Shown here: positions 4,978 through 28,901 of the stretch, piece by piece
How the letters are laid out: each line of letters starts with the position of its first letter
Numbering within the stretch: position 1 is the stretch's first letter
Source of the DNA: a virus
IMG/VR virus record: IMGVR_UViG_3300042890_002023
Span: 1 to 28,901 of that record
Strand: one strand, 5' to 3'
DNA length: 28,901 bases
The notes under the pieces: model-generated
Databases searched by the model: none
Told to the model about the DNA's origin: nothing
Seen by the model: only the letters and a program-made list of their open reading frames with translations
Position numbers and translations under genes: made by a program

Positions 4978-5175
4978 ATGATACAACATCCAAATATAAA
5001 CATTGAGCTTGTGTGGAAGTTGCTTAATGCAGCACCACACATTGCGCAACACGAGGTTATAGACGCAGCTAAGGGAAAATACGAATTAGCTATTGACAAA
5101 AAGACAGCGGTTAAAAAATTTAAACGTAGTTTTAAAACATTGACAACAACACTATGGCCAAAGAAATACAAATAA
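4978..5175 (+). CDS. Small basic protein preceding tape measure
   Basis: A 65-residue Lys-rich protein (AVKKFKRSFKTLTTTLWPKKYK at the end). It starts 3 bases after the previous stop and overlaps the tape-measure start by 22 bases. The overlap and the ATG placement support translation. I do not recognise a family. The position just ahead of the tape measure is where tail assembly chaperones often lie, but its size and composition do not show that function. Confidence 0.6.
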   Translation: MIQHPNINIELVWKLLNAAPHIAQHEVIDAAKGKYELAIDKKTAVKKFKRSFKTLTTTLWPKKYK

Positions 5176-7517
5176 AATTAAACGTAGATGACTCGCAGTT
5201 GCAGAATGCAGCTGGTTCAGCAGATAATCTACGTAAACAATTACGTGAGGCAAGTATTGACTTAGAAAATACCGTTGCTAAATTTGGATTAACGTCTCAA
5301 GAAGCAGCTAAAGCCGCTCAAAAAGTAGGTGAATTAAGAGATACATTAGGTGATGCTAGAGCGTTAGCTGCTGCATTTGATGCTGATAAGAAATTTGCTG
5401 CGGTAGGACAAGCATTAACAGGTGTGTTAGGTGGTTTTACTGCTGTACAAGGTGCATTAGCTGCATTTGGTGTTGAATCTGAGGATGTACAAAAATCATT
5501 ACTTAAAATACAAGGTTTACTTGCATTTACTCAGGGTATAAACCAATTGTTAGCAGCACAAGATGCATTTAAAAACTTAGGTGTTGTAATTCAAACTACA
5601 TCTGGTATCCAAAAATTATTTGCTACCACTACAGTAGCAACATCAACGGCTTTAAATGCGGTTGGTGTAAGCTCAACAGCAGCATCAGTAGGTGTAAGAG
5701 CATTTTCAAGCGCCCTTATTGCAACTGGTATTGGTGCCTTAGTTGTTGGTTTAGGTCTAGCAGTTAGCGCATTAATTGATTTTATTGACAATACAGCAGA
5801 AGCAACTGCTGCAAATGCTGCATTTACTAAATCATTAGAATTAGTAGATGTAGGATTAAATGGTGAATTAAGAGCACTTAAACGTAATGGTGCTGAAAGA
5901 ATAGCACAAGCAAAAGCAATAGGTGCATCAGCATCTGAACTTAATAAAATCACAAATGACAATATCACTGGAGAAATTGAGTCATTACAACGTGCTCAAA
6001 AAGAACGTACTGACATTTATAATAAAGCATTAAAAGATAGAAACTTAAATGCTAAGGATTTTTCTAAGATATCTGATGATTATACTAAAGGTGAGATTGA
6101 AACTACTGCGCGTATTAGAGATTTACAATCTCAGCAACGCATAAACAATTTTGCAGTACAAGAAGGTATTAGAAAAGATAATGAAGCAGCAGGTGCAAAA
6201 CGTGCTGCTCAACGTAAACAAGATCGTGAAAAAGCACAACGTGAAGCAGACCAATTTGCTGAAAAACAAAAGCAAACAGCTGCCGATGTAGAAAAAATGA
6301 TTCTAGAAGCACAACGTACTGCTACTAAAGCATTACTTGATGACGAAGCACAACGTCGCTTAGAAATTCAATTTCAACGTGATGATGATTTAGCTAAATT
6401 AAAAGCTAATCTTGATGCTAAATTAATTACTCAAGAACAATACTTGAAAGCAGTTAGTGCTGTTAATGCACGTTATACTGCTCAAGATCAGGTTATCACT
6501 AATGAGGCTAAAGAAAAAGCAGATGAAAAAGCAGAAGATGATAGAAAGAAAGCTTTAGATAAAGCAATTGAGGATGCAGATGCATTATTAAATATTAAAA
6601 TAACAACTATCGATAATGAATTTGCTGCTAAACAACGTAAGTTAGAAGAACAAAGAGCAGCAGAAACAATTACCGATGTAGAATATAACACTCAGAAAAC
6701 AGCATTAGACTTTGAAGCAGCTACACAACGTGAAGCAGCACTTACTAGTGTAGTTGAATCGAGTGGACAATACAAAGCAGAAATACAAAAGAATTTTGCT
6801 GATCAATCAAATGAATTAGCACAAGCAACTGCTGATACTCAAACAGCAATTACTGTAAATGCTTCTGAACAACAAGTAGCAATAGAACAAAGTAAACAAG
6901 AGGCATTAAGACAATTACAAGATTTGACTATTGGTAACATTGCCGCATTAGGTAATTTATTAGGTCAATTTGGTGAAGAAAGTAAAGGTTTAGCTATTGC
7001 AGCAATTGTAATTGAACAAGGTACTAACATTGCTAAAATTGTAATTGATACACAACGTGAGATTGCAGGTTACTTTGCTTCATATTCAGCAATTCCTTTT
7101 GCAGGTCCTGGTATCGCTGCTGGTTTAGCTACTGCAGCTAAAATTAGAGCAGGATTAGGTATTGCTACTGCTGTAGCTGCTGCTGCAACTGGTATTAGCA
7201 AAATTAAATCAGCAAATAAAAAATCATCTGGTGGTGGAGGTGGAGGTGCAAGTTTAGGTGGTGCAGGTACAAGTGTACCAAAACCATCAGTACCAAATAT
7301 AGCTCAAGCTGCTGCTCCAACAGTTGGTTTATCAGCTGCTAATCCAAATTTAGCAATACAACAATCAATTGCAGGTGCACAACAACGCCCTGTTCAAGCA
7401 TATGTTGTATCAACTCAAGTTACTTCACAACAAGCACTTGATAGACGTAGAAGAGGTAATGGTGTACAAAATTCATCAGATGCTCCAGTTCAAACAGCTT
7501 TATCAACTGGCGGTTAA
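5154..7517 (+). CDS. Tail tape measure protein
   Basis: A 787-residue protein with the usual tape-measure architecture. It has an N-terminal helical region (roughly 1-90). Hydrophobic stretches follow around residues 170-210 (IATGIGALVVGLGLAVSALI). A long charged coiled coil with many Gln, Lys and Glu residues spans about 230-590. A second hydrophobic Ala/Gly-rich block lies near 600-680 (GPGIAAGLATAAKIRAGLGI), and a Gly-rich linker (SSGGGGGGASLGG) and flexible tail end the protein. Tape measures set tail length and contact the membrane during DNA ejection. If the length rule for siphophages holds, about 790 residues implies a tail in the region of 100 nm. Short for the family but complete. 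Confidence 0.85.
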   Translation: MAKEIQIKLNVDDSQLQNAAGSADNLRKQLREASIDLENTVAKFGLTSQEAAKAAQKVGELRDTLGDARALAAAFDADKKFAAVGQALTGVLGGFTAVQGALAAFGVESEDVQKSLLKIQGLLAFTQGINQLLAAQDAFKNLGVVIQTTSGIQKLFATTTVATSTALNAVGVSSTAASVGVRAFSSALIATGIGALVVGLGLAVSALIDFIDNTAEATAANAAFTKSLELVDVGLNGELRALKRNGAERIAQAKAIGASASELNKITNDNITGEIESLQRAQKERTDIYNKALKDRNLNAKDFSKISDDYTKGEIETTARIRDLQSQQRINNFAVQEGIRKDNEAAGAKRAAQRKQDREKAQREADQFAEKQKQTAADVEKMILEAQRTATKALLDDEAQRRLEIQFQRDDDLAKLKANLDAKLITQEQYLKAVSAVNARYTAQDQVITNEAKEKADEKAEDDRKKALDKAIEDADALLNIKITTIDNEFAAKQRKLEEQRAAETITDVEYNTQKTALDFEAATQREAALTSVVESSGQYKAEIQKNFADQSNELAQATADTQTAITVNASEQQVAIEQSKQEALRQLQDLTIGNIAALGNLLGQFGEESKGLAIAAIVIEQGTNIAKIVIDTQREIAGYFASYSAIPFAGPGIAAGLATAAKIRAGLGIATAVAAAATGISKIKSANKKSSGGGGGGASLGGAGTSVPKPSVPNIAQAAAPTVGLSAANPNLAIQQSIAGAQQRPVQAYVVSTQVTSQQALDRRRRGNGVQNSSDAPVQTALSTGG

Positions 7518-7528
7518 AACCATATATT

Positions 7529-9571
7529 ATGAAATTATACGAACTAAAAATAAACGAAGATGAACTTGAAGAAGGTTCAGAGCAAGGAATATATGCTATC
7601 TCTTTGGTGGAAAACCCAGCTATTGAAGAAGATTTCATATACTTGTCTAAGGAAGGCGCAGAAGAGAAGGTATTACTTCAAGAAGCGAATGATGAGCAAC
7701 AAACCCTCATTGGTGCAGTACTCGTTCCAAATAAGAAAATCATCCGTCGTGATCCGCAAACAGGTGAAGAATACTACATCTACTTTGAAGCCGACACGAT
7801 AAAAAGAGCTCAAGAATTATATTTCAAAAATAAAAATAATGATAAATTTACTGTTGACCATAAACGTCCAGTAAATGATATCTATGTTTTTGAAAGTTGG
7901 ATTGTTGATGACCCTAACTTTGATAAATCAAGAGCATATGGTTTAGATTTACCTATTGGTTCTTGGGTTGTTATGGCAAAGGTGGATAACAAGAAAATCT
8001 GGGAAGAAGTAAAAAGTGGTGCTTATAAAGGATTTAGCATTGAAGGTTTACTTAAACATAACCTCAAATTAGCTAAATTAGTTGATTTTGAAGAAGATGA
8101 ACCTGAAATTATACCAGTACCTCCTCCATCAGGAAGTATATTAATTGATTTAATCAATCAGACATTACTTGCTCAAATGAATGAAATTGAAGAGGAAGAG
8201 GCTGAATATATGTTACAATCCATTAGAGGCATAATTAAAAAAGATAAACGATTAAAAAAAGGAGCACGTGTTGAACTTGAAAGTTATACAGATTATCCTG
8301 AAGCTGCTAAGAAAGCTGCCGCTTCAGCGATTAAGAAAAATGAGGAAAGAACTGCGTCACAAAAGTGTGGTACAGCAGTTGGCAAAATTAGAGCACAGCA
8401 AATAGCTCAAGGTAAACCATTAAGCTATGAAACCATTAAACGTGTTTATGCTTATTTATCTCGTGCAATAACATTTATTGATAAATCAGATCCTGATTAT
8501 TTAAATAGCTGTGCTTATATTAGTGTTGGTTTATGGGGTGGAGAGGTAATGTTACCTTACGCTAGAAAAATATTACGCTCAAAAGGCGACTTAAAATTAT
8601 CTAAACAAGATGTATTTTCAGATATAATTAAATTTGCTAAACAAACTGATATTACTTTAATTGCTTGTTCAGCAACTAAATTAGAAAAACCAGCACTCGC
8701 TAAAGAATTATATCAAGGTTCATTATTTAAAAAATCATTAGAATATGCTCTTAAAACGACTAATTCTAAAGATGTATACATTGTATCAGCAAAGTATGGA
8801 CTCGTTGGTTTAAACGATGTTATAGAGCCTTATAACGTGACTTTAAAAGATATGTCCGCCGAAGATAGAGATGATTGGGGAGTTAATGTTTATTCAGAGT
8901 TAAAGAAAAAATATCCTCAATTAGATAATTTAAATGTAACAATATTAGCAGGTATGGCTTATTATGAACCATTAATTAAATTAATTAAAAAATATGATTT
9001 ACCTCTTGATGGATTAAGAATAGGTGAATCAATGCAAGAATTAAATGAAAAACTAAACATTGAATTATCTAAATTAGATGAAGATACAAGAATGGAATTT
9101 GTACTTGATTGTATGTTATCTGAATTAGCAGCTAAATCACCTTACAAAGAAGAATTAGCTGAAGTAGGACCTAGAGGTGGCATTAAAGCATCTCCTAAAG
9201 CACCTAAATCAGATACACCTAACCCAAATCCAAAAGGTGAAGGTACAGCTAAAGGTGATGCAAGTGGTAAACGTGGTGCTGAGGTAAGTGCTAAAGATGA
9301 AGAAACACTTAAAAATAAAGCATCTGAATTCAATGATAAAGAATCAAATACCAAATATGGTAAAGCGAATGTAGGTGCCTTAAAATCAGTATTCCAACGT
9401 GGTTTAGGTGCTTATAACACATCTCGTTCACCTAAAGTACAATCACCATCACAATGGGCATTTGCTAGAGTAAACGCATTTCTATATTTGTTAAAAAATG
9501 GTAGACCACAAAATGATGGTTACACTACTGATTATGATTTACTACCTAAAGGACATCCCAAGGTAGAGTAA
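7529..9571 (+). CDS. Multidomain XkdF-like prohead protease with DUF6884-like domain
   Basis: A 680-residue protein with four visible segments. Residues 20-180 match the XkdF-type serine protease domain (Peptidase_S78_2): AISLVENPAIEEDF, the histidine in KFTVDHKRP (H111) and the serine in GFSIEG (S170). Residues ~240-350 form a helical module (ESYTDYPEAAKKAA, QKCGTAVGKIRAQQIAQGKP, YLSRA) that I know from many phage proteins of this kind. Residues ~374-505 look like DUF6884 (LIACSATKLEKPA, LYQGSLFKKSLEYA, VSAKYGL, VIEPYNVTL), a family related in general form to YaaA-like proteins. Residues ~545-680 (EVGPRGGIKASPKAPKSDTP; GLGAYNTSRSPKVQSPSQWA) are another conserved phage module. Prohead proteases normally sit next to the capsid gene; here the gene is last in the late operon, directly before a terminator. 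Confidence 0.82.
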   Translation: MKLYELKINEDELEEGSEQGIYAISLVENPAIEEDFIYLSKEGAEEKVLLQEANDEQQTLIGAVLVPNKKIIRRDPQTGEEYYIYFEADTIKRAQELYFKNKNNDKFTVDHKRPVNDIYVFESWIVDDPNFDKSRAYGLDLPIGSWVVMAKVDNKKIWEEVKSGAYKGFSIEGLLKHNLKLAKLVDFEEDEPEIIPVPPPSGSILIDLINQTLLAQMNEIEEEEAEYMLQSIRGIIKKDKRLKKGARVELESYTDYPEAAKKAAASAIKKNEERTASQKCGTAVGKIRAQQIAQGKPLSYETIKRVYAYLSRAITFIDKSDPDYLNSCAYISVGLWGGEVMLPYARKILRSKGDLKLSKQDVFSDIIKFAKQTDITLIACSATKLEKPALAKELYQGSLFKKSLEYALKTTNSKDVYIVSAKYGLVGLNDVIEPYNVTLKDMSAEDRDDWGVNVYSELKKKYPQLDNLNVTILAGMAYYEPLIKLIKKYDLPLDGLRIGESMQELNEKLNIELSKLDEDTRMEFVLDCMLSELAAKSPYKEELAEVGPRGGIKASPKAPKSDTPNPNPKGEGTAKGDASGKRGAEVSAKDEETLKNKASEFNDKESNTKYGKANVGALKSVFQRGLGAYNTSRSPKVQSPSQWAFARVNAFLYLLKNGRPQNDGYTTDYDLLPKGHPKVE

Positions 9572-16546: not shown

Positions 16547-17725
16547 ATGCACTTAAATATAAAAACGTCTGAATTGTTTGCTCGCACCTACAATTCGGAC
16601 AAACGTTTTGTTATACATCAGGGTGGTACTAGAAGTGGTAAGACATACTCTATACTTCAGGTACTAATTATTAAAGCGTTGGAGGCAACTTCACCGCTTA
16701 CTATCTCTATTTGTAGACGTAGTATGCCCTCTTTGAAGTTATCTGCAATGCGTGACTTCATTGGCATTTTAGATGCAATGAACTTATATAAAGAATCTGA
16801 TCACAATAAAACTGAAGGTACTTATCGCTTAGGCAAATGTACATTTGATTTCTTATCAATGGATGATGCGGCTAAGAAGAGAGGATCTAAACGTGACATT
16901 TTATATTTGAATGAAGCGAATGAATTAAGTTATGAGGAACAATTCCAATTAGCTATCAGAACTGAGAAACAAGTTATTATTGACTACAACCCAAGTGATA
17001 ATCAATCTTGGATTTATGATTTATTAGAGGAAAGAAAAGACGAGATAGATTTTATACAATCAACTTATAAAGACAATCCATTTTTACCTACTGAAACAAT
17101 TCGTGAAATTGAAAATTTGAAGTACACAGATGATGATTATTATCGCATCTATGCTTTGGGTGAGAGAGGATCAGGCAGAACGCTTATATTTCAATATCAG
17201 CAAATTAAAGGTATAGACTATCACACCACTCAATTTGTGGGGTTAGGAATGGACTTTGGTTATAGTAATGACCCAACTACAATAGTTGAAATATGGAAAG
17301 GTGGAGTTAATGATTTATTTGTTAAAGAGTTATTGTATAAAACTAAATTAACTAATAACGACATCATTGGCGAATTAAAGAAACTAGATGTTGCACCTCA
17401 TACTCTAATTGTTGCTGACTCAGCAGAACCAAAATCAATTGAAGAACTTAGACGAGCAGGTTTCAACATTAAACCAACTAAGAAAGGTAAAGATAGTATC
17501 AATGTAGGTATCGATTATATCAGAAGACATAATTTGTTAGTTACAGAAGATAGTATTAACTTGATAAAAGAATTAAACAATTATAAGTGGAGAATGGATA
17601 GAGATGGTAATATGACAAATCAACCTATTGATGCGTTCAACCACGCTATTGATGCTTTACGTTATATTGGTACATACACACAATCAAAATCAGGAACTGG
17701 GAAATATTATGTCAAATTCATCTAA
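16547..17725 (+). CDS. terL: Terminase large subunit (ATPase and nuclease)
   Basis: A 392-residue packaging motor. The Walker A GGTRSGKT is at residues 26-33 and the Walker B ILYLNEAN at 118-125, with the catalytic Glu at 123. The nuclease domain has acidic residues at D236 (GLGMDFGYSNDP), D291 (IVADSAEP) and D369 (HAIDALRY), the RNase H-like arrangement of large terminases. The length and motifs resemble the PBSX/XtmB group. The next gene begins inside its last codons (17709). It translocates DNA into the prohead through the portal encoded at 25197 and cuts the concatemer. Confidence 0.95.
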   Translation: MHLNIKTSELFARTYNSDKRFVIHQGGTRSGKTYSILQVLIIKALEATSPLTISICRRSMPSLKLSAMRDFIGILDAMNLYKESDHNKTEGTYRLGKCTFDFLSMDDAAKKRGSKRDILYLNEANELSYEEQFQLAIRTEKQVIIDYNPSDNQSWIYDLLEERKDEIDFIQSTYKDNPFLPTETIREIENLKYTDDDYYRIYALGERGSGRTLIFQYQQIKGIDYHTTQFVGLGMDFGYSNDPTTIVEIWKGGVNDLFVKELLYKTKLTNNDIIGELKKLDVAPHTLIVADSAEPKSIEELRRAGFNIKPTKKGKDSINVGIDYIRRHNLLVTEDSINLIKELNNYKWRMDRDGNMTNQPIDAFNHAIDALRYIGTYTQSKSGTGKYYVKFI

Positions 17726-18392
17726 AATAGTAAAACACACGATCCCAACTAGATGGGAAGAAATTAAGTTATCATTGTACTTAAAGTATTATGATATAGT
17801 TAAAGATAAAAAACCTGAAGATGAAGGTTATAATGAGTTTGTACTCAAAGAATTTGCTCACTATCTCTGTTTAATTCATAGAGATTTATTTTCAGCTTTG
17901 GAAATGAATACTATAAATGAAATTTCTGAGAATATGACTAGGATGTTTAAACAAACATCAGCAATGCCTTTAGTTCAGACATTTAAAATTGATGATGTAG
18001 AATATGGTTTCCATCCTAATTTACAAGAACTTACTTACGGTGAGTATCTTGACTTGACTTTATATGGTCAAAAATTATGGGAACAAGAAAATATATATAA
18101 ATTCCTATCCATTTTATATCGCCCCATTATTCGTAAAAGTGGTAAAGAATATATCTTAGATGATTACTCAGGTACATCTCAAGTTAGAATTGATTTATTT
18201 AAATCACATATGACGTGTGATGTTGTTTGGGGCGCAATCAGTTTTTTTTTGCTTTTACAACTAGCCTTGGTGAACAGTACGAGTCTCTATTTGACGGAGC
18301 TAACTACGGAAATAGCACAAGAGTTGAAGCAAACTTTGCGAACAAATGGGGAACATATCAAACAATCTATACATTGGCTGGAGGGCGTTTAG
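17709..18392 (+). CDS. Tail assembly chaperone-like protein, short (zero-frame) product
   Basis: A 227-residue protein in the zero frame. I chose ATG 17709 (MSNSSKIVKHTIPTRWEEI), which overlaps TerL by 17 bases, rather than an upstream TTG or ATG deep inside TerL. The N-terminal part (TIPTRWEEIKLSLYLKYYDI) and PNLQELTYGEYLDLTLY look like a conserved phage family. Downstream of the T9 run the zero frame continues for 47 residues (VNSTSLYLTELTTEIAQELK; GEHIKQSIHWLEGV) to TAG. A -1 shift at the T run would give the longer product described separately. Two-product genes of this kind in tailed phages usually encode tail assembly chaperones, although the position just after TerL, far from the tape measure, is unusual. 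Confidence 0.72.
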   Translation: MSNSSKIVKHTIPTRWEEIKLSLYLKYYDIVKDKKPEDEGYNEFVLKEFAHYLCLIHRDLFSALEMNTINEISENMTRMFKQTSAMPLVQTFKIDDVEYGFHPNLQELTYGEYLDLTLYGQKLWEQENIYKFLSILYRPIIRKSGKEYILDDYSGTSQVRIDLFKSHMTCDVVWGAISFFLLLQLALVNSTSLYLTELTTEIAQELKQTLRTNGEHIKQSIHWLEGV

Positions 18393-18517
18393 TAGACTTT
18401 GACGCTGTTACCAAATTACCTTTACATTCTTGCCTAACTTACTTAGCTTATCTACAAGATAGATCTCAGGTTGAACATATATTAATCAAACAATCTTCAA
18501 ATCAACTGAATAGATAG
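17709..18517 (+). CDS. Probable -1 frameshift product of the same gene (about 269 aa)
   Basis: The -1 frame is open from the T9 run to TAG at 18515-18517. It encodes FAFTTSLGEQYESLFDGANY followed by NKWGTYQTIYTLAGG and DFDAVTKLPLHSCLTYLAYL. KWG(W/T)YQ(S/T)IY...LAxG...F...T.L....CL..L is a motif I recognise from Bacteroidota phage proteins found in this neighbourhood, so this frame is very likely translated. It has no good start codon of its own (only TTG at 18227), and its conserved part overlaps the zero-frame coding. A join at 18245-18251 would fuse the first 180 codons to about 88 codons of the -1 frame. If the run had one more T the whole gene would be a single frame, so a sequencing undercall is the alternative. 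Confidence 0.65.
18242..18251 (+). promoter_or_regulatory. Slippery site for -1 ribosomal frameshifting
   Basis: Nine T then G (18242-18251) give two overlapping X-XXY-YYZ heptamers in the zero frame: T TTT TTT at 18242-18248 and T TTT TTG at 18245-18251. Both allow tandem slippage by one base with near-perfect re-pairing. I did not find an obvious strong downstream stem by eye. Confidence 0.62.
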
Positions 18518-18811: not shown

Positions 18812-21800
18812 ATGCCTACACAAAGACAAGAAATATCAGCTTCAATACAAGCTAACTTTCCAGATAATACGTCTCAATTTATTACTCCTGCTCGCATAAG
18901 AAGTGAACAAGGGTTATTTGAAAACTATGTAGTATTAAATGAACAAACAGCATCTATTATAGCTCAAGCTGTTGCTTCATCTTCTGCAGGTGCTGGATTT
19001 GTAACTGATGCAGCATTTAATGCATACACTGGTAGTACAAATACATTTACAGGTTCAATACAAACTCAAGTAAATGCTCTCCAAGCAGCTACAGGAAGTT
19101 ATGTAACAAACGCTCAAACAGCAAGTATGAGTGTTTTAAGTGCTTCTTATGCATCTAGCTCAACTAGTGCTTCGTATGCCTTAACTGCATCTTTTGCCTT
19201 AAATGCTGGTGGAACAATTAATACAGGTAGCTTCGCTACAACTGGTTCAAATACTTTTAATGGTACAAATACATTTACTGGTAGTTTAAATGCTCAATCA
19301 GCATCAATTACATTTTTAACAGTAGGTACAATTGTATCATCATCAACTATATTTTCAAGTGGTTCAAACACATTAGGTGATGCAAGTAATGATGTACAAA
19401 CACTTTGGGGTACAGTTAATTTACCTACAGGACCATTACAAGTTACTGGTTCAGTAAGTTCAACAAGTGGATTTACAGGTTCACTTCAAGGTACATCTTC
19501 ATTTGCTAATAGTGCTACAAGTGCTTCATATGCGTTATCTGCTACATCAGCATCATATGCTTTAAACAGCACAAATGCTGTTTCTGCTTCATACGCAAGC
19601 GCTTCAACAAGTGCTTCATTTGCTTCAAATGCTACTTCAGCATCATACGCAAGTTCATCTACTTCAGCTTCATTTGCTAATAATGCTACAAGTGCTTCAT
19701 ATGCATTAACAGCTTCATTTGCTTTAAATGGTGGTGGTGGAACAATTAATACAGGTAGTTTCGCAACTACTGGTTCAAATACATTTATTGGTGATCAAAC
19801 AGTAAGTGGTTCAGTAAGAATTAGTGGTTCATTAGTAATGAATGGTTTATCTCCTATTCAAGCATCTCATATAAAAGCAAATGATATTCAAGGAGTAGAA
19901 ATACTGACTAATAGTGGAACAACAGTAGCTACATTTGGTCAAGGTGGTGGAACAGGAGCAACATTTGCAGGTCAAATAAATGCAACAGCATTTTCAGGTT
20001 CAGGTGCTTTAGTAACAGGAGTTGTTAGTTCATCTTACGCTGCTAATTCAACATCAGCATCGTTTGCTATATCAGCTTCTTGGGCTCCTTTTGTAGCTAC
20101 AAATACAGGTTCATTACTTACAACTGCATCAGTTTCTTTAAATACAATTACCTTTACTAAAGGTGATGGTTCAACATTCCCAATTACTGTAAATACAGGT
20201 TCAGCAACATCTATTGATACTGGTAGTTTAGTTACTACAGCATCATTTAATGCTTATACTGGAAGCACAAATACATTTACTAGTTCAATTCAACAACAAG
20301 TAAATACTTTACAATCAGTTACTTCATCGTATGTAACTAATGCTCAAACAGGTTCATTTGTAACAAGTGCTATTACAGGTTCTTCAATAATTACAGCATC
20401 TGTAAGTTTAAATACAATTACATTTACTGAAGGTGATGGTACAACATTTAACATTACTGTAGATACAGGATCTGGAGGTGGTGGTGGTGGAATGAACTTA
20501 GGCGCTAACACGTTTACAGGTTCACAAACAATAGCTTCAGCTTCAGTTTATATTACTCCAACAGGTTCAACTGTTCAGTATTTAACTGAAAGTGCTGTTA
20601 GAGGTAACTTAGTATTTGGTAATACTAACTTAGCTCAATCTGGTTCAGTTATTGTTACTGGTTCAAATAATATTTTACTAGGTATAGGTGTATCAACAAC
20701 AGGTCAAGGTGGATGGAATGGAAGTAGAAACGTAATTATAACATCTCCACAATACTCAGGTTCAGTACCAAGTATGAATGGTACAATTAATTTAGGTAAC
20801 TATATAGCATCAGGTTCGGGTACAGGCACAAATGCTATTTCTTCAACATTCGCAAATGGTGGTATCACAGTTACAAATACTTCTCCAAGTAGTAATACTA
20901 CAATTTCTACTTCAAATATAAATGCTACAACTACTATTAGACACGCAGCGAGTGGTTCAACAGTAGCAAATGGTAACTTAACAATTAGTACTACAAACTT
21001 AGGAGGTAGTGTATTAATTAGTACAACTGGTTCATCTACAGCAGCTAAAACTATAGCTCAATCAATGTTTGTAGGTGGTAATATTACTGCTTCATTAGAA
21101 GCTGCTTCAAACTCAAACTTAGCCAATACAATTGTTTTAGGTTCTGGTTTAGTAGTAAGTGGTACTTTAGCAGCAAGTAGCTTATCAGGTTCTACAATTG
21201 TAGGTCAATATAATGAAACAGGTTCATTAAGTGATCCTTCACAAGTTAAATTTGTAGTTGGTACAGGTACTTCAGCCACATCTCGTAGAACTTCATTCTA
21301 TGTAAGTCAATCAGGTGAAACTGTAGCTGTTAACTTAGTTCCTACTACTTTAAATACTCAAAACACAACCACAATTCAAAGTACAGGATCTATTACAAAT
21401 AGAATCCATACCAAACAAGCAGGTGCAATGCCAGCTGGAGGAATTAGTTCATCATTTATAATTTCACCTGAAATTGGATTAGAACCAACTGCAGCAAACT
21501 TTAAACCAATTTTACAAAGAAACTTAACTGGTTCAATTGGGCAAAGTGGTTCATATGTGTTTAATATTGATTTTGTTAACAACGTATTAGTAGCCACAAG
21601 TACTGACTTATACATTGGTTCAGGTAAAATAAGTGGATTCTGTATTCCAGGTAGAACTGCTACAGTTGCTGCAACAGCATCAATTCAAAACTATGTGTTT
21701 AATGATTCTAGTATGTTACCAGCAATAAGTTCATCTTGGGATGGTACATTATATACAGTATTTGCTAAACATAATGGAGGTGCTTCATCATCATTTGCTT

Positions 21801-21841
21801 ATACAGGTACTGAATTCTATCATAGCGGTTCAACTCAATAA
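18812..21841 (+). CDS. Repetitive tail fibre / receptor-binding protein, 1009 aa
   Basis: The N-terminal 50 residues (SIQANFPDNTSQFITPARIR) resemble virion-attachment segments of Bacteroidota phage fibres. A long low-complexity shaft follows, built from (S/T)SASYA and TASFALN units, densest from about 19130 to 19720. Larger duplications include FNAYTGSTNTFTGS (residues 69 and 479), GTINTGSFATTGSNTF (twice) and VSLNTITFT-x-GDG (twice). Residues ~795-845 (IVGQYNETGSLSD, FVVGTGTSATSRRTSFYVSQ) match a motif common near the ends of phage fibres and trimeric adhesins. The C-terminal ~170 residues are less repetitive and probably bind the receptor. No autoproteolytic chaperone domain was seen. Likely trimeric. 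Confidence 0.85.
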   Translation: MPTQRQEISASIQANFPDNTSQFITPARIRSEQGLFENYVVLNEQTASIIAQAVASSSAGAGFVTDAAFNAYTGSTNTFTGSIQTQVNALQAATGSYVTNAQTASMSVLSASYASSSTSASYALTASFALNAGGTINTGSFATTGSNTFNGTNTFTGSLNAQSASITFLTVGTIVSSSTIFSSGSNTLGDASNDVQTLWGTVNLPTGPLQVTGSVSSTSGFTGSLQGTSSFANSATSASYALSATSASYALNSTNAVSASYASASTSASFASNATSASYASSSTSASFANNATSASYALTASFALNGGGGTINTGSFATTGSNTFIGDQTVSGSVRISGSLVMNGLSPIQASHIKANDIQGVEILTNSGTTVATFGQGGGTGATFAGQINATAFSGSGALVTGVVSSSYAANSTSASFAISASWAPFVATNTGSLLTTASVSLNTITFTKGDGSTFPITVNTGSATSIDTGSLVTTASFNAYTGSTNTFTSSIQQQVNTLQSVTSSYVTNAQTGSFVTSAITGSSIITASVSLNTITFTEGDGTTFNITVDTGSGGGGGGMNLGANTFTGSQTIASASVYITPTGSTVQYLTESAVRGNLVFGNTNLAQSGSVIVTGSNNILLGIGVSTTGQGGWNGSRNVIITSPQYSGSVPSMNGTINLGNYIASGSGTGTNAISSTFANGGITVTNTSPSSNTTISTSNINATTTIRHAASGSTVANGNLTISTTNLGGSVLISTTGSSTAAKTIAQSMFVGGNITASLEAASNSNLANTIVLGSGLVVSGTLAASSLSGSTIVGQYNETGSLSDPSQVKFVVGTGTSATSRRTSFYVSQSGETVAVNLVPTTLNTQNTTTIQSTGSITNRIHTKQAGAMPAGGISSSFIISPEIGLEPTAANFKPILQRNLTGSIGQSGSYVFNIDFVNNVLVATSTDLYIGSGKISGFCIPGRTATVAATASIQNYVFNDSSMLPAISSSWDGTLYTVFAKHNGGASSSFAYTGTEFYHSGSTQ

Positions 21842-23037: not shown

Positions 23038-23979
23038 ATGAATAAGAACGTATTTTTACAACAGCCTACATTAGATGGCAACACCTATAGTGGTGAATTT
23101 GCTGGTAAGTATATCGCTGCCGCGCTTTTTAGCTCACCAACAATCGACAAAGAGTTGATTACTGTACTTCCTAACGTACGTTACAAAGAAGTTATCCAGA
23201 AGTTTGACTTCTCTAACTTAATTGGTAACGCTGCTTGTGATTTCGGTAACGCAACTCCTGCTTCAATGTCAATCTCTGAAAGATTATTAACAACTGAAGA
23301 ATTTCAAGTTAACTTACAATTGTGTAAGAAGCAATTACGCCAAACTTGGGAAGCTACTATGATGGCTCCTTCAGTATTAAATGACACTTTGCCTACTTCA
23401 TTCTCTGATTTCGTAATCGGATATGTTGCTCAGCAAGTTGCTCAACAAAACGAAACTAACATCTGGCAAGGTGCTACCGCAACAGTAGGTCAGTTTGATG
23501 GTTTAGTAACTTTAATGTGTACTGCTTCAGGTTCATCTAACTCACCTGTATTCGTATCTGCTTCAGCTGTAACTTCAGCTTCAGTAATTAATGAACTTCA
23601 GAAAGTAGTTAATGCTATTCCTTCTGCAGTATATGGTAAAGAAGATTTAAGTATCTATGTACCTGCTAACATCGTTAAAGCTTATGCTTTCGCTTTAGGT
23701 ACTGCTAACTACCAATTTGGTGCTTATGTAGGTGGTAAGCCATTAGATTTCTTAGGAATACCTCTTCAATACTGCCCTGGTTTAGCTTCTAACACAATGG
23801 TAGCCGCACAAAAATCTAACTTATTCTTCGGTACAGCGTTAAAAGCTGACTTCAACGAAGTAAGAGTGTTAGATATGAGTGATTTAGATGGTTCACAAAA
23901 CGTAAGATTTGTGATGCGCTATGCAGCTGGTGTTCAGTTCGGTGTTGGTTCAGATATTGTAGCTTACAAGAACTGCTAA
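23038..23979 (+). CDS. Major capsid protein
   Basis: A 313-residue protein following the probable scaffold. It has the composition of an HK97-fold capsid protein of Bacteroidota phages: TFSGEFAGKYIAA-like opening (NTYSGEFAGKYIAAALFSSP), VRYKEVIQKFDFSN, a Gln-rich helix (DFVIGYVAQQVAQQNETNIW) and KLDF-type late strands (FRVLDM-like NEVRVLDMSDLDGS). Its codon choice is more GC-rich at third positions than that of its neighbours, as expected of a highly expressed gene. No stop or shift. It would build the icosahedral head. Confidence 0.85.
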   Translation: MNKNVFLQQPTLDGNTYSGEFAGKYIAAALFSSPTIDKELITVLPNVRYKEVIQKFDFSNLIGNAACDFGNATPASMSISERLLTTEEFQVNLQLCKKQLRQTWEATMMAPSVLNDTLPTSFSDFVIGYVAQQVAQQNETNIWQGATATVGQFDGLVTLMCTASGSSNSPVFVSASAVTSASVINELQKVVNAIPSAVYGKEDLSIYVPANIVKAYAFALGTANYQFGAYVGGKPLDFLGIPLQYCPGLASNTMVAAQKSNLFFGTALKADFNEVRVLDMSDLDGSQNVRFVMRYAAGVQFGVGSDIVAYKNC

Positions 23980-24065
23980 TTAGCATAAAATAATGGATGG
24001 TTGGTGGTTACCCTCCTAAAAACAAAACCTCATTTTTTTTTAAAAATAAATTAAATTATTAAAAT

Positions 24066-24632
24066 ATGCCTTGCGATATTACATTAGGTAGAAATGAACC
24101 GTGTAAAGACTCCGTTGGTGGTTTAAGAGCAGTATTCTTCCAAAACTTCAGTCAAATTTATACTGGTTCTCTAGTTGGTGGAACAGGAAGTTTATCTGAC
24201 ACAATCAATGGTGGCTTCTCAGGTTCAACCGTATATAATTACGAGTTAAAAGGTAACTCAACCTACACTGAAACCATCGTAACCTCAAGAGATAATGGTA
24301 CTACTGCCTTCCAACAAGTATTAGTATTGAACCTTAAATCATTAGATGCAACTACAACTAAACAGTTAAAGTTGTTAGCTTATGGTCGTCCACAAATCTT
24401 TGTTCAAACAAACAAAGGTGATACCCTATTAGTAGGTCGTATCAATGGTGCTGATGTAACTGAAGGAACAATTGCTGAAACTGGTGCTTCATTAGGTGAT
24501 AAGTACGGATATAGCTTGACGTTTACTGGATTAGAGTCTTTACCTGCTAACTATGTTAGTGGTTCAACAGTTGCTAACGCATTTGCTGGATTAGGTTCTC
24601 AAGCTCCAACAGTAGTTACAGGTACTAACTAG
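24066..24632 (+). CDS. Probable major tail tube protein
   Basis: A 188-residue beta-rich protein. CDITLGRNEPCKDSVGGLRA opens the sequence, followed by YELKGNSTYTETIVTSRDNG, LKLLAYGRPQIFVQTNKGDT and a segment ending in YGYSLTFTGLES. This pattern belongs to an abundant virion protein family of Bacteroidota phages. The strand order and the ADVTEGTI...YGYSLTFTG ending resemble tail tube proteins. A decoration protein is the alternative given its place right after the capsid. Two terminators follow it. Confidence 0.7.
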   Translation: MPCDITLGRNEPCKDSVGGLRAVFFQNFSQIYTGSLVGGTGSLSDTINGGFSGSTVYNYELKGNSTYTETIVTSRDNGTTAFQQVLVLNLKSLDATTTKQLKLLAYGRPQIFVQTNKGDTLLVGRINGADVTEGTIAETGASLGDKYGYSLTFTGLESLPANYVSGSTVANAFAGLGSQAPTVVTGTN

Positions 24633-28145: not shown

Positions 28146-28901
28146 ATGGCTTATACATTTACACAGACTCCGCCTTCATTATCATTAGCGGAATCTCCAA
28201 TGGTATTTACTGTACTTGATACAACTAATGTATCTAAAGATCAGTATCAATACGTACTAAAATTAAAATATTGGACAGGTTCATTCGCACAAGAACCAGC
28301 TACATTTAATTATGTGCTGCAAAAATATCCTAATGCCTCAGGTAGAGGTATGTTTGATATATCCAAGATAATTGGATCTTTATTTGTTGGTGCTGAACAG
28401 GATTACCATCAAATGTATAATTATAAAGTGTATGGTAATTTTATTTACTACACTGCATCTATAGGTGGATATGTAACTGGTTCAGATGTAACTTCATCTA
28501 TTAATCAAGCAATTGATGGATATCAGTTATTTAATAGTTCATCTTATATAGGTGAACCTGCAAATAGTGAAAGTGCATTGTGGCCTATTATGTCATCAGC
28601 ACCTACAACTCAATCATCTTATATTTGTGATTTCTGTGGTGGCACAGGAAACTATGGTTTAATGTCAGTATTGAATTTCTACAATTCATCTAATACTGCT
28701 TCTTATACAGCAGTTGATTTTAATGGAGTATCTAGAAGTTATCAAGAAACGTGGGTATCAACTAACGTTACAGGTTCAACTACTGCATCAGTAACTCAAA
28801 TAGCAAGTGGTATAAATGTATTAAATTTATTATCACCTGGCTTTATTACCAGTGATACAGCTTATTATACTGTTCAAATCAAAAATAACGGAGTATCTAT
28901 T
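28146..28901 (+). CDS. Tail protein, 5' part (continues at position 1; split by contig ends)
   Basis: An ATG-started frame is open to the end of the contig (252 codons) and joins in frame to bases 154-609 at the other end, giving 403 residues. It starts MAYTFTQTPPSLSLAESPMV and continues with VLKLKYWTGSFAQEPATFNY. Ser/Thr-rich beta-like segments follow, with a CDFCGGTG motif near residue 175. This form, together with DECKYTPVVIKF in the second part, is typical of a tail protein family in Bacteroidota phages located before the large tail tip genes. In this copy codon 244 is CAA; in the left copy it is TAA. Confidence 0.82.
   Translation, partial: MAYTFTQTPPSLSLAESPMVFTVLDTTNVSKDQYQYVLKLKYWTGSFAQEPATFNYVLQKYPNASGRGMFDISKIIGSLFVGAEQDYHQMYNYKVYGNFIYYTASIGGYVTGSDVTSSINQAIDGYQLFNSSSYIGEPANSESALWPIMSSAPTTQSSYICDFCGGTGNYGLMSVLNFYNSSNTASYTAVDFNGVSRSYQETWVSTNVTGSTTASVTQIASGINVLNLLSPGFITSDTAYYTVQIKNNGVSI
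28749..28901. repeat. Right copy of contig-end overlap
   Basis: Matches bases 1-153 except for C at 28875 against T at 127. It keeps the reading frame of the tail gene open. Confidence 0.93.

Follow-up and report, generated by a model that had tools for sequence, protein, structure and literature searches.

Organization of the locus behind the terminase gene

The window, i.e. the whole stretch of 28,901 nucleotides of viral DNA analyzed here, contains a gene for the terminase large subunit (TerL) on the plus strand (16547-17725; Terminase_3, 5.9e-25), which overlaps the start of a 0-frame ORF of 227 amino acids on the same strand (ATG at 17709, stop ending at 18392). This ORF, which would encode a G-like product, contains a run of nine T (T9; 18242-18250, plus strand), a candidate slip site that is read as AG T TTT TTT TTG (S F F L) in the 0 frame and appears as T9 or T10 in relatives. 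The residues before the run form an N-domain that would be common to both products of the gene. Behind the run, the -1 frame extension (18251-18517, plus strand; 88 codons and a stop) encodes the putative T-like domain of a fusion product. The -1 frame is free of stops from shortly before the run up to the one that ends at 18517 and reads FFFAFTTSLGEQYESLFDGANYG...KWGTYQTIYTLAGG...LPLHSCLTYLAYLQDR. The tail of the 0-frame product after the run comprises 46 codons, every one of which is also read in the -1 frame (dual-coded stretch 18252-18389, plus strand). When random synonymous codons were used for this tail, the -1 frame stayed open across it in 0.7% of the trials (p 0.007), which makes the joint openness of the two frames unusual. 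The third (+1) frame is closed within 4 codons of the run by a TAG (18262-18264, plus strand).

A T9 run as such is not remarkable in this AT-rich window, which holds two of them compared to 5.3 expected from shuffles. The second run (24033-24041) lies in the gap between a major capsid-like gene, which ends at 23979, and the next gene, which starts at 24066. A presumed tape measure gene is located at 5154-7517 on the plus strand (phrog_21917, E 9.5e-5); directly before it, and overlapping it by 22 bases, lies an ORF of 65 amino acids (4978-5175). A long fibre-like ORF with TASSASYA-type repeats (18812-21841) is found directly behind the module. At the right end of the window, an ORF (28146-28901) runs off the sequence, which means that the contig is either incomplete or was cut at this point.

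Conservation of the run and of both reading frames

Three related contigs from other metagenomes, whose 0-frame product is 85-98% identical to that of the window, keep T9 and both proteins, and their 0-frame stop shifts by one or two codons. A broader comparison covered 181 loci in which both parts were recognized. These loci were fetched by TerL and then by profile, using search patterns that made no use of the run; they include repeats of the same contig and were clustered into about 52 lineages. The junction run is T9 in 156 and T10 in 25 of the 181 loci, and none of them has a run of 5-8 or of at least 11 T at this place. In 179 loci, the second part stands in the -1 relation to the first, with the transition late in the ORF as judged at the sequence level. 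An earlier note on this DNA had proposed a real gene for two products whose frame changes at the T run, and these counts bear it out; the slippery run and the overlap, for which it had suggested an inspection of homologues, are both conserved. The comparison with relatives is the decisive evidence for T9 together with two protein-coding frames, and it confirms this combination as a genuine observation that holds far beyond the window.

The architecture is kept down to about 20-25% protein identity. In an alignment of eight fused proteins, with identities to the window down to 23%, FF at the junction is invariant. The run occurs in codon phase 0, 1 or 2, and the flanking residues change with the phase, while the run length stays constant. 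Away from the junction, 19 same-strand T runs of at least nine were found in 1.58 Mb of fetched loci.

We additionally compared codon changes within and outside the overlap in 67 sequence pairs. In the N-domain, the third position varies in 33% of the codons whose amino acid is retained, whereas the corresponding values for the overlap are 8% (0 frame) and 15% (-1 frame). Within the overlap, 26% of the amino acids change in the 0 frame compared to 16% in the -1 frame. The -1 product is under the stricter constraint, but the 0-frame tail is held too, and its first helix, FFxxLxxxLLxxTLxYL, is common to distant relatives. The drop in synonymous change from 33% to 8% agrees with the previous suggestion that both tails are under selection in the same DNA. 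For the window, L008 and L009 taken alone, the counts are small and merely consistent with suppressed synonymous change. The distance from the run to the 0-frame stop is 84-312 nt, with a median of 231. Overall, the comparative data demonstrate a conserved, programmed frame transition combined with dual coding.

These data bear on two other explanations. Homopolymers are error-prone, and a sequencing or assembly error might have hidden a true run of T10 within one continuous gene. Indeed, L038 and L039 carry T10 in a single continuous ORF, which makes them natural fusions (or indel errors), yet this outcome, which the earlier note had raised as speaking against two products, remains uncommon, at 2 of 181 loci. 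Independent metagenomes, the finished genome of an isolate and assemblies of bacterial genomes all contain T9, and the 0-frame tail is conserved with synonymous change suppressed in the overlap. The error explanation is refuted by these comparisons, and we consider it extremely improbable. Scarcely better placed is the assumption that two distinct genes overlap here and that the second is translated from a start codon of its own. TTG codons occur near the run in 33 of the 52 lineages, and gp41 of the Nonlabens phage P12024L is annotated from an internal ATG; however, an ATG able to start the -1 part alone is present in just 2 of the 52 lineages, and the window offers nothing but a TTG, located 15 nt ahead of the run, as a conceivable start in this frame. 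The earlier note had likewise described the -1 frame as lacking a good start. In L009, a close relative, and in L028, a distant one, a TAG in the -1 frame immediately precedes the run, so that an independent start is impossible there. Furthermore, the start position is not conserved, the conserved FFF begins inside the run and natural single-frame fusions exist. We therefore reject an independent second gene, an arrangement not seen in the homologues, as very unlikely.

In a direct tblastn search, the window proteins matched no named phage. Queries from other lineages reached, among named phages, only the Nonlabens phages P12024L and P12024S (Inhavirus), and three further lineages used as queries matched none. 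In both phages the gene, represented by gp40/gp41 in P12024L and gp38/gp39 in P12024S, lies behind TerL as in the window, with only about 20-26% identity to family members. In P12024L, a cultured phage, the junction is T9, and the second part follows in the -1 frame. In both genomes the parts are annotated as separate hypothetical proteins, and in P12024L the frame transition was missed by the annotators. The annotated gp41 of P12024L (L114, JQ823123, 12528-12695) begins at an ATG inside the reading frame, so that the public record lacks about a third of the -1 domain.

T9 members are also present in Bacteroidota genomes of up to 56.5% GC, Winogradskyella MAGs and others; these members are L197, L190, L192, L191, L198, L199, L200, L217, L218 and L220. 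In L218, which has 56.5% GC, the junction run is the only A/T run of at least 8. L201 is an exception, with T8 and the -1 relation. Single-frame fusion relatives need not keep T9: in a close pair, L220 has T9 and the -1 frame, while L219 has T7 and a single fused ORF, and in L221 the ORF is fused and the run absent. One T9 member (L206, G701:C60, about 8581-9500) lies in a bacterial contig with few recognizable phage neighbours; this copy is possibly a remnant or domesticated.

Gene neighbourhood and probable function

TerL is located directly upstream of the frameshift gene and is its constant neighbour in most relatives. The place behind TerL, which had been called unusual, is thus the usual one in this family. 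HNH-like ORFs (KMTIDHINNDKLDNRLENLRL) are inserted between the two genes in L029, L030-L032 and L034. Longer contigs show the order TerL, frameshift gene, two small genes, two larger genes, tape measure gene and head maturation protease gene, i.e. the frameshift gene opens a tail module that ends with the tape measure gene. Two relatives of the window's presumed tape measure gene (L127:14335-16194, L174:14399-16822) match phrog_21917 as well as named tape measure families, and the tape measure protein is the expected partner of the frameshift product. L011 and L028 encode identical proteins just downstream of clearly different frameshift genes, suggesting that recombination has left a boundary immediately after the gene.

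In lambda-like phages, the chaperone gene is located directly before the tape measure gene, a place taken in the window by the ORF of 65 amino acids. For the frameshift gene, the lambda order, behind the tail tube gene and directly before the tape measure gene, is absent in the window and was found only in L196/L210, a weak candidate relative with a similar -1 extension that is flanked by a presumed tail tube gene and a clear tape measure gene.

The natural fusion of L038 is predicted to be compact (mean pLDDT 93.8), with the junction inside a long helix and a helical T domain after it. The predicted 0-frame protein of the window continues the junction helix to residue 213. A search of PDB folds with the fused model gave nothing significant and listed no solved chaperone, which does not amount to an exclusion, and strong fold matches in BFVD were all to unnamed or uncharacterized phage proteins, one of them from P12024S. 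The window proteins have no match to Pfam Phage_TAC families, and PHROGs and Pfam yield only weak matches to families of unknown function. Weak-to-clear matches of the family were obtained to phrog_32199 with the N part (best 4e-14) and to phrog_38404 with the C part (best 1e-4); both are of unknown function, and the gene is split between them at the junction. The family profile did not match Mu gp41 or HK97 gp13 significantly. L043 alone reached Phage_TAC_7, at a sub-threshold 16.5 bits (cut-off 25), and this member also matches phrog_166 'tail protein' with an E value of 8e-6.

From gene architecture and context we infer a role in tail assembly: the gene product is probably a tail assembly chaperone. 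A short product and a -1-extended product made from one gene in the tail module are also known from lambda G/GT, HK97 gp13, Mu gp41 and P2 E/E', and the G/GT-like logic proposed in the earlier note is supported as the best reading of the function. In analogy to lambda, the short form would be abundant and the long form scarce, and the two would cover the tape measure protein and bring in subunits of the tail tube, the product ratio likewise being inferred. In contrast to lambda-type chaperones, the gene is located behind TerL and a significant sequence or fold match is absent. Since neither adjacency to the tape measure gene nor the Pfam score, both of which were examined, places it there, the gene is not filed in a known chaperone family. 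Two real products with another role in the virion or its assembly, for example as connector, scaffold or minor tail part, would fit a gene behind TerL and away from the tape measure gene, as well as the marginal homology to chaperones and the missing PDB match. Nevertheless, the opening position in a module closed by the tape measure gene, the Phage_TAC_7 and phrog_166 hits and the placement of the L196/L210 candidate argue against such a role, which we regard as unlikely.

Mechanism of the frame transition and its implications

Taken together, our best explanation is a tail-chaperone-like gene of Bacteroidota phages that yields two products by RNA polymerase slippage at T9, to which we assign a probability of roughly one half. 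Most messages would carry U9 and be translated into the 227-amino-acid G-like 0-frame protein. A minority of messages would gain one U by polymerase slippage on T9, and ribosomes on these messages would enter the -1 frame and produce the N-domain fused to the 88-amino-acid T-like domain.

Nine A/T is a length taken as slippage-prone in bacteria (PMC1088944), and the GeneTack survey used runs of 8 or more as its threshold (PMC3711429). The family has an A/T homopolymer of at least 8-9 at the frame junction, and its length is independent of the codon phase, as expected of a slippage site. Where TA or TG follows in phase 1, a C in place of the eighth T would be silent in both frames and T TTT TTC would remain a heptamer, yet this position is T in 34 of 34 lineages. 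With the gene-wide upstream TTC usage of 28% as reference, this gives a p value of about 2e-5, but with the TTT-biased xGF motif as control (3 TTC in 33) it is only about 0.04; the lineages in these tests are not independent. A stop in the third frame within 3 codons of the run is present in 92% of the lineages compared to 38% of control positions. Such a stop would truncate the products of U8 or U11 messages, but conserved residues may contribute to this excess, and the lineages are related.

The same gene and the same products could also arise on the ribosome, by programmed -1 frameshifting at T TTT TTT or T TTT TTG, similar to lambda G/GT, in which the long run merely supplies a heptamer in any phase or offers several chances to slip. 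Both heptamers, of the form X XXY YYZ in the 0 frame, are present in the window, and a usable one exists in every locus of the family, which would allow the ribosome to shift. In L196, the weak candidate that resembles lambda, the run is only T6, in the exact phase T TTT TTG, and the tail chaperone frameshifts already known, including those of G/GT genes, are ribosomal (PMC5009743). Against this stands that a heptamer needs 6-7 T, yet runs of 5-8 are absent from all 181 loci, and that the doubly synonymous eighth T is never C. Furthermore, downstream RNA structure was not found in 60-nt windows from 43 lineages, where the mean fold z is -0.2 to 0.05 at 0-20 nt after the run for pseudoknot-free folds. 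In -1 ribosomal cassettes, a stimulatory downstream structure is common, though not obligatory. Of the earlier proposal of a classical -1 slippery heptamer, the heptamer itself is thus present, but its reading as the signal finds no support in that form: conservation concerns a run of 9-10 T in variable phase, with no structure found behind it, which points to transcriptional slippage. A simple -1 heptamer is probably not the mechanism. The fixed run length at variable codon phase, the doubly synonymous T that is never C and the lack of a detectable downstream structure lead us to favour, with some reserve, RNA polymerase slippage at U9-10; ribosomal frameshifting is the less probable mechanism, albeit one to be taken seriously.

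G/GT recoding is the textbook case of ribosomal frameshifting. The lambda-type signal consists of GGGAAAG-like heptamers with a short overlap, whereas here we find a run of T9-10, and the overlap extends over about 26 to 90 codons. Two frames that join at a conserved run of nine A/T are also known from Thermus dnaX (A9), Shigella mxiE and IS elements. However, these slippage systems are cellular or IS genes, while the present candidate serves phage assembly and has a long overlap read in two frames. The invariant T9-10 run together with the long conserved overlap is its distinctive novelty. The literature consulted on transcriptional slippage in tail chaperones and on frameshifting in Bacteroidetes, Flavobacterium and Cellulophaga phages, with subscription journals mostly outside its scope and an earlier description therefore possible, does not describe this family.

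Overall, a very large unannotated family holds T9-10 at one codon position despite divergence to 20-25% identity, and many hypothetical proteins of uncultured phages gain a likely function and a corrected gene model. For work on overlapping genes, the family also provides long dual-coded sequences in unusually large number. Bacteroidota phages may well set the ratio of two tail-chaperone products by polymerase slippage at an invariant T9-10 run, the odds for and against being about even. If true, this would be a phage assembly family whose two-product logic lies in transcription and not in translation.
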